A DNA stretch of 38,239 nt from positions 1 through 38,239 of the forward strand of contig JXQG01000012.1 in NCBI GenBank assembly GCA_001007665.1, in the 5' to 3' direction. The position numbers and the translations under genes were made by a program. This stretch comes from Candidatus Synechococcus spongiarum SP3. GTDB lineage: Bacteria; Cyanobacteriota; Cyanobacteriia; PCC-6307; Cyanobiaceae. Under the pieces are notes generated by a model, which made no database searches, had not been told where the DNA came from, and was given only the letters and a program-made list of their open reading frames with translations. Below are positions 26,383 through 29,846 of this stretch, one piece after another. The stretch's first letter is position 1, and the number at the start of each line of letters is the position of its first letter.

Positions 26383-26448
26383 GTTTGGTTGCCAGGTGCT
26401 GCTGTGGCCATGGTGGCGGGCTCGGCATCGCTCAGCTATGGATTTAAC

Positions 26449-26583
26449 ATGCCTGAATCCATGATTGCAGTCGAGTATTGGGGAAGCGAAAGAACATCTA
26501 TACCTGTTAAGGATGCGGCGCAAAAAATCGTCGGGTGGAACAGTCAGAGTATCATCAATGCAAGCAAGGAGGTGGCTCAATGA
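26449..26583 (+). pseudogene. C-terminal fragment of a TIR-like (DUF1863/ThsB-type) protein
   Basis: Only about 41 recognisable residues remain: MIAVEYWGSERTSIPVKDAA followed by QKIVGWNSQSIINASKE. This matches, from memory, the C-terminal strand and helix of MTH538/DUF1863 TIR-like domains (pattern xIAVxPWGSERT...A..IVGWN..SI..AI). In Thoeris ThsB and relatives such domains act in NAD-derived signalling. The N-terminal part with the catalytic residues is missing; upstream is GC-rich sequence following ndhS. The frame is open back to 26389, but that part shows no family similarity. The stop (TGA 26581-26583) overlaps the next gene's ATG by 4 nt, the arrangement of an intact operon. The region is AT-richer than its neighbours. 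Homology needs a profile search. Confidence 0.6.
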
Positions 26584-27057
26584 CGAATGTAAGCAAGGAC
26601 CAGCTTTTAGAGATCTACAAGCTTCACGCCGAGCTTGCCGACCGGGTGAGCCAAAGACGTGAAGGGGCTAATCGCCTTTACGTCAGCCTGTTGTCGGGCT
26701 TTTTTGCGTTCCTTGCCGTCCTGCTGCAGTTTGGCTCAGGAGAGACATCCACATCCGCGATTTTACTGTTTTCCGGGATCATTGGCATGGCCATATCTGG
26801 ATCATGGTACATTATCATGGTACATTGTGATTCGTTCTTACCGACAACTCAATACGGGAAAATTTGCCGCTCTTGATGAACTTGAACAAAAACTGGACTA
26901 TCCATTCTTAACACGTGAATGGGAACTGCTAGGGCGGGGCAGGAATCGTAACCGTTACTGGAAGTTGACTGTTGTGGAAACATTTTTGCCGACTATTTTC
27001 TTTCTGCTATTCTTCTCCTTCCTGGTGATTGCTCTGCGCATGTTCTACAATCAGTAA
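26580..27057 (+). pseudogene. RipA-family membrane protein, broken by a 13-bp duplication
   Basis: The first frame from ATG 26580 (MTNVSKDQLLEIYKLHAELA) runs DRVSQRREGANRLYVSLLSG, then two membrane helices (GFFAFLAVLLQF and ILLFSGIIGMAISGSWYI). It then goes out of frame. The next frame continues VIRSYRQLNTGKFAALDELE, then EWELLGRGRNRNRYWKLTVVE and a last helix (FLPTIFFLLFFSFLVIAL) to 27057. RVSQRRExANRL, RSYRQLNTGKF and WELLGxGxxxxxY are hallmarks of the RipA family of octameric membrane proteins. The frames are joined perfectly if one copy of a 13-bp tandem repeat at 26801-26826 is removed, giving GSWYIVIRSYRQLN. The intact protein would have about 154 residues. It follows the TIR-like remnant with a 4-nt overlap, so the two were probably partners. 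Confidence 0.78.
26801..26826 (+). repeat. Perfect 13-bp tandem duplication inside the RipA-like gene
   Basis: The unit ATCATGGTACATT occurs twice back to back (26801-26813 and 26814-26826). Thirteen bases shift the frame by one, and deleting either copy restores a continuous conserved reading frame. This is the direct cause of the gene disruption, either by mutation or by an assembly error. Confidence 0.95.
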
Positions 27058-27152
27058 GTCCAGCCAGCCGCTCTACCGCTCTCCCGAGAGATGAGTTGCG
27101 TCATGGTCAGGCGGCTGTTTTCGGGGGCGGGTCCATCAGCAATCCTTGTCTC

Positions 27153-29846
27153 CTACAGGTAATGTGTCGTTTCCGGATTCAGGGATTCATAGGCCTGGGG
27201 ATCACAGGCGAGCAGAATCACCTGGAGACCTCTGGCTGCAGCAGTGTTCAACATCCTGCTCACCATGGAGATGCGCTCGGGATCGGTGTTGGCGAAGGCG
27301 TCGTCAAAGATCAGCGGCAGACAGTGGTCGTGGCGATCCTTCAAAACATCGGCCATGGACAGACGCAGCGCGGCGCCCAACTGTTCCCTCATGCCGCCGC
27401 TGAGCTGGGCAAAGTCGTACGGGTTCTGGCCGCGCCACAACTGGAGGCCCTGCAAGCCCGCGTCCTGGCTGTAGCGCATCTGGCAGATGGGGCCCTGGTG
27501 GTCAGGGCGCAAGGGCGCCAGATAACTGCTGACGGCCTGGGCCAGGGGCTCGGTGTAGCGGTTGGAGAGGTGGTCCTGAGCCTGGCGGAAGCGCTCCTTG
27601 AGCAGCAACAAGGCTGCCCCCCGCCGGTGCTGATGCTCCCACTGCTCTTGGGCCTCTTCCAAGCCGGCCTGGGCCTTTTCCAAGGTGGTCATGGGGTCTT
27701 CTTTACTGCTGCTCCGGCGCCGCTCCTGGAGTTGCCCTTCCTCGTGAAGCAGCTGTTGTTGGCGGGTCTGCAGCTCTGTCTCCTGGCGTTCCAGCCTGGG
27801 AATGAGCACGTCTGGCGGATCCAGCTCAGGCGCGATCCAATCCTGGAGTTGTCGGCGAAGTTGCTCCAGCGCGATTCGGGCCTTGGCCTGCTGCTCCTTC
27901 TCCTGGGTGGCGCGGGTTTCCAGGGCTTCGATGGTTCCATGGGTGGCCAGAAGTTTCTGCACCTGATCCAGGCAGGACTGTTCCTGACTGGCGAGCACCT
28001 GCAACCGGGTCTGCACTTGAGCCTGTTGAGGCTGGAGGGTGGCTACTGCCTGCTGGGCCCCGTGCAAGGCAGCCTCGGCTTGCCGACACCGATCCCTCAC
28101 CTGCCGGCTGGCGTGTTGGTGCTCCCCAAGTTGGCGTTCCAGCACAGCGGTGGTGGGAGGGCCCTCCCCGGTTGATGTTTCCTCCGCTTTGCCCGGCGCA
28201 TCCTTGCCGGGCGCATCTTGCGCCAACTGCTGCTTCCGGGTTTCCACGTGGGCCAATTCCTCTTGAAGGCGCTGGAGCGTCTTGGGATCCGCCTGTTGAC
28301 GTTGGGCCTTCAACCGCTGTTGGAGCCCTTGCCGCTCACGGAGGAGCTCATCGGCCGCCTCCACACTGGCCACACCCAGGCTCCGCAGCGCCTCCGCCAA
28401 CGCCTGGGTGGCTTCCTGGCAGTCCTTGGCCAAAGCTGCCTGGTCCCCGCCGGGACTGATGCGCACAGCCACGTCGTCTCCCACCCGCAGCTCCGCCGCC
28501 CCGGTCAGTGGAAGCGGCTGGCCAACGGTGAGGATTTTCCTCCCCAGCCGCACCTGCTGACGGACCTGGGCATGGAGCAGTTCCACCGTGGCCGCCATGG
28601 CGTCCCGGCGGGTTCGGCAATCCCGCTGACGGCCTTCCAGCGCACGGAGTTGTTGTACCTGATCGAGGCCAAGGGGAGGCAAGCGTCCCAAGTCGCTGCG
28701 CAACCGCTCTTGAACCTGCTGCTGCTGTTGCAGCGCCTGAAGCTCCTGCTGGAGTCGCCGTTGCTCCTTCCAGCACTGTAGTTGCTCCACCTTATGAGAC
28801 AGGTAGGCGTCCCGTTCTCTCAAGTGGCTGACCTGCTGTTGGTGTTCGTCCTGGGTCTGCCGGGCGCTGGCCAGTTGCTGCGCCAACACCTGCTTCTGCT
28901 GCAGGCACGGTTCCTGGTCCAGCTTGTGGCGCCGTGCTGCGCTGGCCAGTTCCTTGAGGCTGCGTTGAGCCTGGCCCAGCCTCTCCACCCTGACGTTCAG
29001 GTTGTCCAGCTCCTTGTCTTGCAGGAGGCACTGGTTCTGTAGGCGCCGTAATTGGGGCAGGCGCTTTTTGAGGTCATCCAACCGACCACGAACCTGCGCC
29101 AACTGGTCACCCACTTGGGCAAGCTGCTGGCTGACAACCCTGTCCTCCTGCACCAGTTGCTTCGCTCGGACCAGCTCCCGGGTTGCCCGTTCTTTCTGTT
29201 GCTCAGCCGTCCACAGGAGGGAGTGTTTCTTGGGCTTGGGTGTTCTGCTCAAGTTGGTAAAGGTGTCGCCGATTTGCTGATCAATGCAATCCGCCACCTG
29301 TTGATCCAACGGGGATTGCAGCGCCGCGCCACCCCGTTGCTCCAACTGCCGGATCAGTTGCTCCAGGGGATAGGTCTCACGATCCTGGAGAGGATTGTTC
29401 CCCGCCTCTCCCTGCACAACCCAGAGGTGGCCCCAGCATTTGTCAAGGACAGAACTGGCCCGGCGGCCGTCCAGGGGGCCGCCGCTCTCCAGCAGCATGG
29501 CCAGCTTCTCCTCGGCCTCTGGTCCCGTCAGGGGCAGCCCACTGGCAGGGTGCAGCTCCGTCCGCCCGCGGGGACCGCCAAACTCCTTGTGGAGGCGCCA
29601 ACGCCGGCCTCTGGCCGTAAAGACCAACTCCACCGTCGGCACCCCCTGGTGGGTGCGGGAGTGGAGTTGATCCACCACGGCGCCGCTGGCGGTGGATTTC
29701 AGAAACAGTGCCCGGTGCAGGGCTTCAAGAAGGGTGCTCTTGCCCGTTTCATTGGCGCCGCCCACGAGTGTGAGCCCCGGCGCAAAGTCCAGGCTCAGCT
29801 CCCGGTGGATGCGAACATTGCAAATCCGACAGTGCTCCAGTCGCAT
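27153..29846 (-). CDS. SbcC/Rad50/YhaN-like SMC ATPase
   Basis: An 897-residue SMC-type ATPase that should pair with the SbcD-like nuclease upstream to process DNA ends and hairpins. The N-terminal Walker A is GGANETGKSTLLEALHRALF (about residues 30-49). The centre is a very long Gln/Leu-rich coiled coil (about 200-740), broken by a short globular segment. The C-terminal lobe has the signature LSGGMREQLGAALRLSMAD and Walker B LPLIFDDAFANTDPERI. No CxxC zinc hook is found in the middle of the coiled coil, so it is nearer to YhaN-type than to classical Rad50. ATG 29846 places the first strand normally. It is 53 bp downstream of the nuclease gene and converges with the TIR/RipA remnant, 95 bp away. 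Confidence 0.88.
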   Translation of the reverse strand: MRLEHCRICNVRIHRELSLDFAPGLTLVGGANETGKSTLLEALHRALFLKSTASGAVVDQLHSRTHQGVPTVELVFTARGRRWRLHKEFGGPRGRTELHPASGLPLTGPEAEEKLAMLLESGGPLDGRRASSVLDKCWGHLWVVQGEAGNNPLQDRETYPLEQLIRQLEQRGGAALQSPLDQQVADCIDQQIGDTFTNLSRTPKPKKHSLLWTAEQQKERATRELVRAKQLVQEDRVVSQQLAQVGDQLAQVRGRLDDLKKRLPQLRRLQNQCLLQDKELDNLNVRVERLGQAQRSLKELASAARRHKLDQEPCLQQKQVLAQQLASARQTQDEHQQQVSHLRERDAYLSHKVEQLQCWKEQRRLQQELQALQQQQQVQERLRSDLGRLPPLGLDQVQQLRALEGRQRDCRTRRDAMAATVELLHAQVRQQVRLGRKILTVGQPLPLTGAAELRVGDDVAVRISPGGDQAALAKDCQEATQALAEALRSLGVASVEAADELLRERQGLQQRLKAQRQQADPKTLQRLQEELAHVETRKQQLAQDAPGKDAPGKAEETSTGEGPPTTAVLERQLGEHQHASRQVRDRCRQAEAALHGAQQAVATLQPQQAQVQTRLQVLASQEQSCLDQVQKLLATHGTIEALETRATQEKEQQAKARIALEQLRRQLQDWIAPELDPPDVLIPRLERQETELQTRQQQLLHEEGQLQERRRSSSKEDPMTTLEKAQAGLEEAQEQWEHQHRRGAALLLLKERFRQAQDHLSNRYTEPLAQAVSSYLAPLRPDHQGPICQMRYSQDAGLQGLQLWRGQNPYDFAQLSGGMREQLGAALRLSMADVLKDRHDHCLPLIFDDAFANTDPERISMVSRMLNTAAARGLQVILLACDPQAYESLNPETTHYL

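Follow-up and report, generated by a model that had tools for sequence, protein, structure and literature searches.

The window analyzed here is a stretch of 38,239 nucleotides from Candidatus Synechococcus spongiarum SP3 (GenBank assembly GCA_001007665.1, contig JXQG01000012.1, positions 1 to 38,239, forward strand). Between the 3′ end of ndhO and a convergent sbcC gene, it carries the remains of two overlapping genes, one for a TIR protein of the ThsB/DUF1863 type and one for a small membrane protein of the octameric membrane protein family 8xMP (PF24838). What is left is a TIR-8xMP operon that no longer works, ordinary in itself, and it is considered here together with its intact relatives in other genomes. 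A first-pass annotation, made from the sequence alone, had set its limits at 26449 and 27057; the end and the reading frames were correct, whereas TIR homology begins only at 26453. The features are as follows:

26423..26452, no strand: junction between the ndhO side and the module, at which the N-terminal two-thirds of the TIR gene are gone; homology ends at 26422 on the ndhO side and resumes at 26453 in the module
26453..26583, plus strand: 3′ end left over from a TIR gene of the ThsB/DUF1863 type, the last ~43 codons and the stop codon, without the WIxxE glutamate, assigned by TIR homology
26580..26876, plus strand: N-terminal half of the 8xMP (PF24838), assigned by Pfam match, with two transmembrane (TM)-like peaks; the frame is lost past the duplication
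26801..26826, plus strand: two identical tandem copies of the 13-bp sequence ATCATGGTACATT, read directly from the sequence, a duplication that shifts the 8xMP frame
26812..27057, plus strand: C-terminal half of the 8xMP in the other frame, assigned by Pfam match, with RSYRQLNTGKF, a predicted cytosolic segment and the third TM-like peak
27058..27140, no strand: spacer before the convergent sbcC; sbcC and an 8xMP tail are also adjacent in a second genome of the genus (G002:C60)

The open frame that ends at 26583 encodes MIAVEYWGSERTSIPVKDAAQKIVGWNSQSIINASKEVAQ. This piece is 66% identical over 47 residues to a full-length TIR protein from the same genus (E 1.5e-14), which has no other match in the window genome. 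A profile of 12 TIR proteins from other genomes matches the piece at E 3.1e-13 over profile positions 93-138 of 139 and finds no second match among the 787 stop-to-stop open segments of the window, and chance similarity is thereby ruled out. Searches of the 41- to 64-residue piece against Pfam and NCBIfam returned no TIR match; Pfam is silent because only the C-terminal third remains, which is too short on its own. The first-pass annotation had recognized the C-terminal end of a DUF1863/ThsB-type TIR domain at this place, and the search for a TIR/DUF1863 profile match bears this out: 26453-26580 does match, and the full-length relatives reach 52-66 bits against ThsB_TIR (PF08937), for which the cut-off is 21.2. 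The piece is real and, judged by its sequence, is what remains of a ThsB/DUF1863-type TIR protein, some 43 residues at its C-terminal end. The glutamate of the WIxxE motif, which is invariant in the 12-member TIR alignment, conserved to at least 90% across both TIR types and, by analogy with the family, presumably catalytic, is absent from the window copy. No other TIR protein of the ThsB type, the missing N-terminal part included, was found elsewhere in the window genome.

The second gene begins within the first, the TIR stop codon (TGA, 26581-26583) and the 8xMP start codon (ATG, 26580-26582) sharing the sequence ATGA, which is the 4-nt overlap described earlier. When the two halves of the 8xMP gene were searched separately against PF24838 (curated cut-off 30 bits), the N-terminal half (frame 26580-26876) matched at E 1.4e-11 and 44.8 bits over profile positions 1-70, and the C-terminal half (frame 26659-27057) at E 9.6e-19 and 68 bits over positions 64-135; both exceed the cut-off, and relatives score 110.8 and 112.4 bits. 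The first-pass annotation had named the protein a RipA-family member; the family matched is Pfam's 8xMP. It is the exact 13-bp duplication that splits the gene between two frames. Programmed frameshifting at this place was rejected, as relatives read through without the duplication. Compared with relatives, both halves have a ratio of non-synonymous to synonymous substitutions (dN/dS) of 0.07-0.19, indicative of purifying selection, and the frameshift therefore looks recent. The G+C content of 26400-27000 is 42-53%, compared with 61-67% for the genes on both flanks, in line with the AT-richer composition reported at first pass.

With the catalytic part of the TIR protein lost and the 8xMP gene broken by the duplication, the window copy is non-functional. 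Homology of ndhO to other genomes reaches 26422 at most, the 3′ end of this gene at the left flank, and homology on the sbcC side begins at 27141-27153. Since the ndhO and sbcC sides lie on separate contigs in other genomes and an 8xMP tail also adjoins sbcC in G002:C60, a rearrangement appears to have joined an sbcC-side copy to the ndh cluster, and the loss of the N-terminal TIR part with the WIxxE glutamate would most simply be explained by this event. Of the earlier description as an acquired, decaying island between an NDH cluster and an SbcCD pair, the decay and the flanks thus stand; acquisition at that spot does not, because it was the rearrangement that brought the ndhO and sbcC sides together. 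It is improbable that faulty assembly produced the ndhO/TIR junction or the 13-bp duplication and that the cell possesses an intact pair. The genome is a fragmented draft of 117 contigs and ndhO and sbcC are on separate contigs in relatives, both of which would fit such an error, but the N-terminal TIR part does not occur elsewhere in the window genome, the adjacency of sbcC and the 8xMP tail recurs in G002, and the two breaks would need separate errors.

When ten genomes of the genus were searched, the 669-base stretch was matched in five, the window genome and four others. These four (G002, G003, G005 and G006) have a full-length TIR gene ahead of the 8xMP gene, which it overlaps or abuts. 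All four intact pairs are divergent from a conserved gene of ~1360 codons (1356 aa), for which PADLOC returned either the DISARM methylase DrmMI (8.5e-107) or a type IIG restriction enzyme (4.9e-69), and genes of the AbiLi, PDC-M11A/B and AbiJ_NTD4 types are found near some of the copies. In G003:C5 (L036 5250-6660), which has a further copy of the methylase region, a gene for a YhaV-type toxin takes the place of the pair, and only ~70 bp of the 3′ end of the 8xMP gene are left. From this gene content, we read the pairs of the genus as members of a defence island, a setting that the first-pass annotation had proposed to check for. As a separate observation, 7766 bases are 100% identical between L035 (G002:C133) and L031 (G003:C28), although the two genomes otherwise differ by ~10% in the region, which likely reflects bin contamination or a very recent transfer.

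The pairing is not confined to this genus. A scan with an 8xMP profile, one genome per species, yielded 80 loci that were kept, 79 of them with a clear 8xMP gene; an alignment of all 8xMPs proved too heterogeneous for scanning the collection. A TIR gene lies directly upstream of the 8xMP gene in 40 of the 79 loci and directly downstream in eight, that is, in 48 altogether. The hosts belong to the Pseudomonadota, Bacillota, Planctomycetota, Chloroflexota, Acidobacteriota, Ignavibacteriota, Gemmatimonadota and Patescibacteria-type lineages, and one is an archaeon. Coupling is tight: in 37 of the 40 loci with TIR upstream, 8xMP has an in-frame start between -14 and +10 nt from the TIR stop, with the -4 overlap in eight, a count made mechanically by taking the start nearest to the stop. 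On plasmids, 9 of the 14 loci inspected have the TIR gene immediately upstream, among them four haloarchaeal ones, often surrounded by defence-type genes, and on viral contigs five of seven do. Intact pairs are present, for example, on Polaromonas pH8NP2 (L072) and Synechococcus elongatus pIITB6_1 (L073), and in a member of the Burkholderiales (L099). When viral contigs were searched with the C-terminal half of the window 8xMP, and phage records with 8xMP, no match was obtained. The preference for TIR-like neighbors that the first-pass annotation had named as a test is thus strong outside the melainabacterial clade. One large partner is encoded on plasmid pRL22b6 of Rhizobium leguminosarum (L079 328-4435), where the 8xMP gene follows 1 nt downstream of a gene for a 1215-aa TIR-NB-ARC-WD40 protein (N-terminal TIR domain by PADLOC, NB-ARC from the annotation, WD40 repeats).

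Other arrangements were seen at single loci. In one Mycobacterium sp. (L149 5917-7528), the 8xMP gene is followed by a gene for a caspase-domain protein (Peptidase_C14) in place of the TIR gene, and in another (L147 5758-7927) by one for a 466-aa TIR_2 protein. Two 8xMPs from Comamonadaceae (L125, L137), close to those of L135, L145 and L160, have a 271-aa TIR_2 protein encoded upstream and a second gene directly before the 8xMP gene; the TIR_2 identity of the 271-aa protein was confirmed by Pfam in L137.

TIR has diverged faster than 8xMP. Between G002 and G003, nucleotide identity is 90% for the methylase (restriction-modification) gene, 67% for TIR and 94% for 8xMP, and synonymous divergence (dS) is ~1.2 for TIR and 0.14 for 8xMP. 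Across the four related loci L030-L033 (G002:C76, G003:C28, G005:C81, G006:C32), identities are 60-84% for TIR, 83-90% for the methylase and 86-94% for 8xMP, suggesting that the TIR cassette between the methylase and 8xMP genes was exchanged alone. Of 75 locus pairs with at least 60% identical 8xMPs, which are not independent of each other, 61 show lower conservation of TIR than of 8xMP and three the opposite; the extremes include 88% identity for 8xMP against 30% for TIR, and 92% against 49%. Near-identical 8xMPs occur, for instance, in L133 and L138 and in L145 and L160. TIR proteins have thus been swapped on a conserved 8xMP, as would be expected if TIR were the variable sensing side. These data also bear on the idea of a toxin-antitoxin-like pair, in which one protein is toxic and the other restrains it. 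The genes are small, overlap and are carried on plasmids and prophages, and a YhaV toxin gene takes up the position of the pair at one site, all of which would suit it; we nevertheless regard it as very improbable, as gene order varies (TIR upstream in 40 loci, downstream in eight), a large receptor-like TIR protein is among the partners, and different TIR types on near-identical 8xMPs would be odd for a specific antidote.

In our reading, to which we assign a probability of roughly 0.6, the intact TIR-8xMP pair is a TIR-based immune operon, with TIR as the sensing side and 8xMP as a conserved membrane effector, the window copy being dead. A ThsB-type TIR, alone or fused to sensor domains, would detect infection and use NAD+ to produce a nucleotide-type signal; 8xMP would receive this signal, or the activated TIR itself, and permeabilize or otherwise disable the membrane, resulting in abortive infection. 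A precedent is type II Thoeris, in which a signal made by TIR causes a TM-macro ThsA to oligomerize and disturb membranes (PMC11204291; PMC12847820). Because the Rhizobium partner is a TIR-NB-ARC-WD40 protein, TIRs are exchanged on a kept 8xMP, and type II Thoeris provides this precedent, we favor TIR as acting upstream of 8xMP; the Rhizobium protein would suit the role of a nucleotide-binding leucine-rich repeat receptor (NLR)-like protein with a TIR output and 8xMP as its membrane partner. The earlier suggestion that the pair forms a defence module gains support from its recurrence and defence-island context, while the signaling direction and the anti-phage role are what we infer.

The reverse assignment, with 8xMP as a sensor or anchor that responds to membrane damage or phage entry and clusters TIR, and TIR as the effector that destroys NAD+, is unlikely but has points in its favor: the coupling is tight and the adjacency of the two genes fixed, TIR could be bound by the conserved segments of 8xMP predicted to face the cytosol, and clustering makes TIR domains act (PMC12847820). 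A conserved 8xMP with a swapped TIR is, however, the opposite of what a sensor under phage pressure should show, and one TIR partner already has a receptor-like NB-ARC/WD40 part of its own.

The 8xMP monomer was modeled with confidence as three long helices (predicted local distance difference test, pLDDT, 89.6). A crude hydropathy analysis of 60 8xMPs gave three TM-like peaks in 40, two in 10 and four in 10. Residues invariant in TIR-linked 8xMPs fall mostly into predicted cytosolic or membrane-surface segments, and nine residues are kept in the TIR-linked 8xMPs only, when these are set against the melainabacterial ones. The conserved predicted cytosolic and interface segments would thus be the candidate place for binding of a signal or of TIR. 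A relative of 8xMP with a solved structure was sought by sequence and not found.

Several observations weigh against an immune operon with 8xMP as its effector. Foldseek and VIA-align found no significant structural match for the 8xMP model, only generic helical bundles, and no recognized nucleotide-binding domain is present in 8xMP. By our custom profile, 31 of the 79 8xMP genes have no TIR neighbor, a Pfam TIR_2 protein being nearby at four of these (L098, L137, L147, L157), and most of the proteins behind the query of the scan were TIR-linked, so that the TIR fraction is biased upward. In a tree of 131 8xMPs, the 23 melainabacterial proteins form one clade without TIR; on the same tree, TIR linkage changes 20 times, compared with ~44 times with shuffled labels. 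Among ~30 ThsB_TIR loci fetched from Cyanobacteria, 8xMP is the neighbor at one, and most are in other settings. The faster divergence of TIR could also result from relaxed selection. We know of no anti-phage or NADase assay of a TIR-8xMP pair.

A TIR preference of the whole 8xMP family was consequently rejected, given that the melainabacterial 8xMPs lack TIR neighbors: 8xMP is not exclusively a TIR partner. The claim of a tightly paired module holds insofar as the pair recurs across unrelated genomes, but the preference is limited to a part of the family. The melainabacterial 8xMP genes (L042-L066) recur at certain chromosomal positions, which by eye lie downstream of FtsH-like genes or next to KBL-like ones. 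These conserved, non-defence positions would fit a housekeeping pair consisting of a nucleoside hydrolase or transferase with a TIR-like fold and an 8xMP that serves in transport or stress. The TIR model matches the ThsB structures 8wcf, 8fz9 and 6lhy (Z about 12-13), and its match to DNPH1 and to nucleoside deoxyribosyltransferases, which share the fold, is just as close. The TIR-linked members are, however, patchily distributed, have defence neighbors and occur on mobile elements, and the sequence family is ThsB_TIR, so that we consider housekeeping the least probable of the explanations weighed.

Returning to the immune operon, its operation would, by analogy, be most like that of type II Thoeris, in which a gene for a ThsB-type TIR likewise adjoins one for a membrane protein; no macro domain was found in 8xMP. 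With type I Thoeris (ThsB plus SIR2-SLOG ThsA) it has a ThsB_TIR component in common (PF08937, PADLOC ThsB matches), whereas its partner is a small membrane protein without SIR2 or SLOG. SIR2, SLOG and macro domains gave no match in the 8xMP partner, in which only PF24838 scored above its cut-off. We have not filed TIR-8xMP as Thoeris I or II because the partner contains neither SIR2-SLOG nor TM-macro.

The closest published idea is that of TIR-SLATT pairs. TIR genes are found beside genes for 2TM SLATT proteins in phages, SLATT being predicted to be a membrane effector regulated by ADP-ribose (ADPr) (PMC9503650), and the prediction of such pairs extends to conflict systems other than phages (PMC9503650; PMC7159879). 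In both cases, the TIR gene adjoins one for a short membrane protein, and an ADPr-responsive effector has been proposed for SLATT. 8xMP is a Pfam family of its own (60 of 60 surveyed proteins and both window halves match PF24838), and by the crude hydropathy analysis most members have three TM-like peaks; within the family, a set of conserved residues distinguishes the TIR-linked members from the melainabacterial clade. SLATT was not among the Pfam hits listed for the 60 8xMPs at E 0.1. One 8xMP matches NCBIfam SLATT_1 at 9e-4, under the SLATT_1 cut-off, and hhalign of 8xMP against a small set of three SLATT_1 proteins gave no match. Literature linking TIR to 8xMP, RipA or PF24838 was not found, a weak absence given that most subscription journals were outside the coverage.

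The TIR-8xMP operon recurs, and there is good genomic support for regarding it as a putative new variant of TIR-based immunity. It is possible, though somewhat doubtful, that it constitutes a widespread class of TIR immunity so far undescribed, with members in archaea and many bacterial phyla. In such a class, TIR sensors of several subtypes would be interchangeable and drive one conserved, octameric family of 8xMP effectors that reads the signal without a known nucleotide-binding domain. If the intact pairs do defend against phage, they would form a Thoeris-like class with a new family of membrane effectors and offer a series of natural experiments in which TIR is swapped and the effector stays constant. 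Tests could then address whether there are TIR products in addition to those known, and by what means a TIR signal can be read by a small membrane protein without macro, SLOG or SAVED; part of the PF24838 family would acquire a role.
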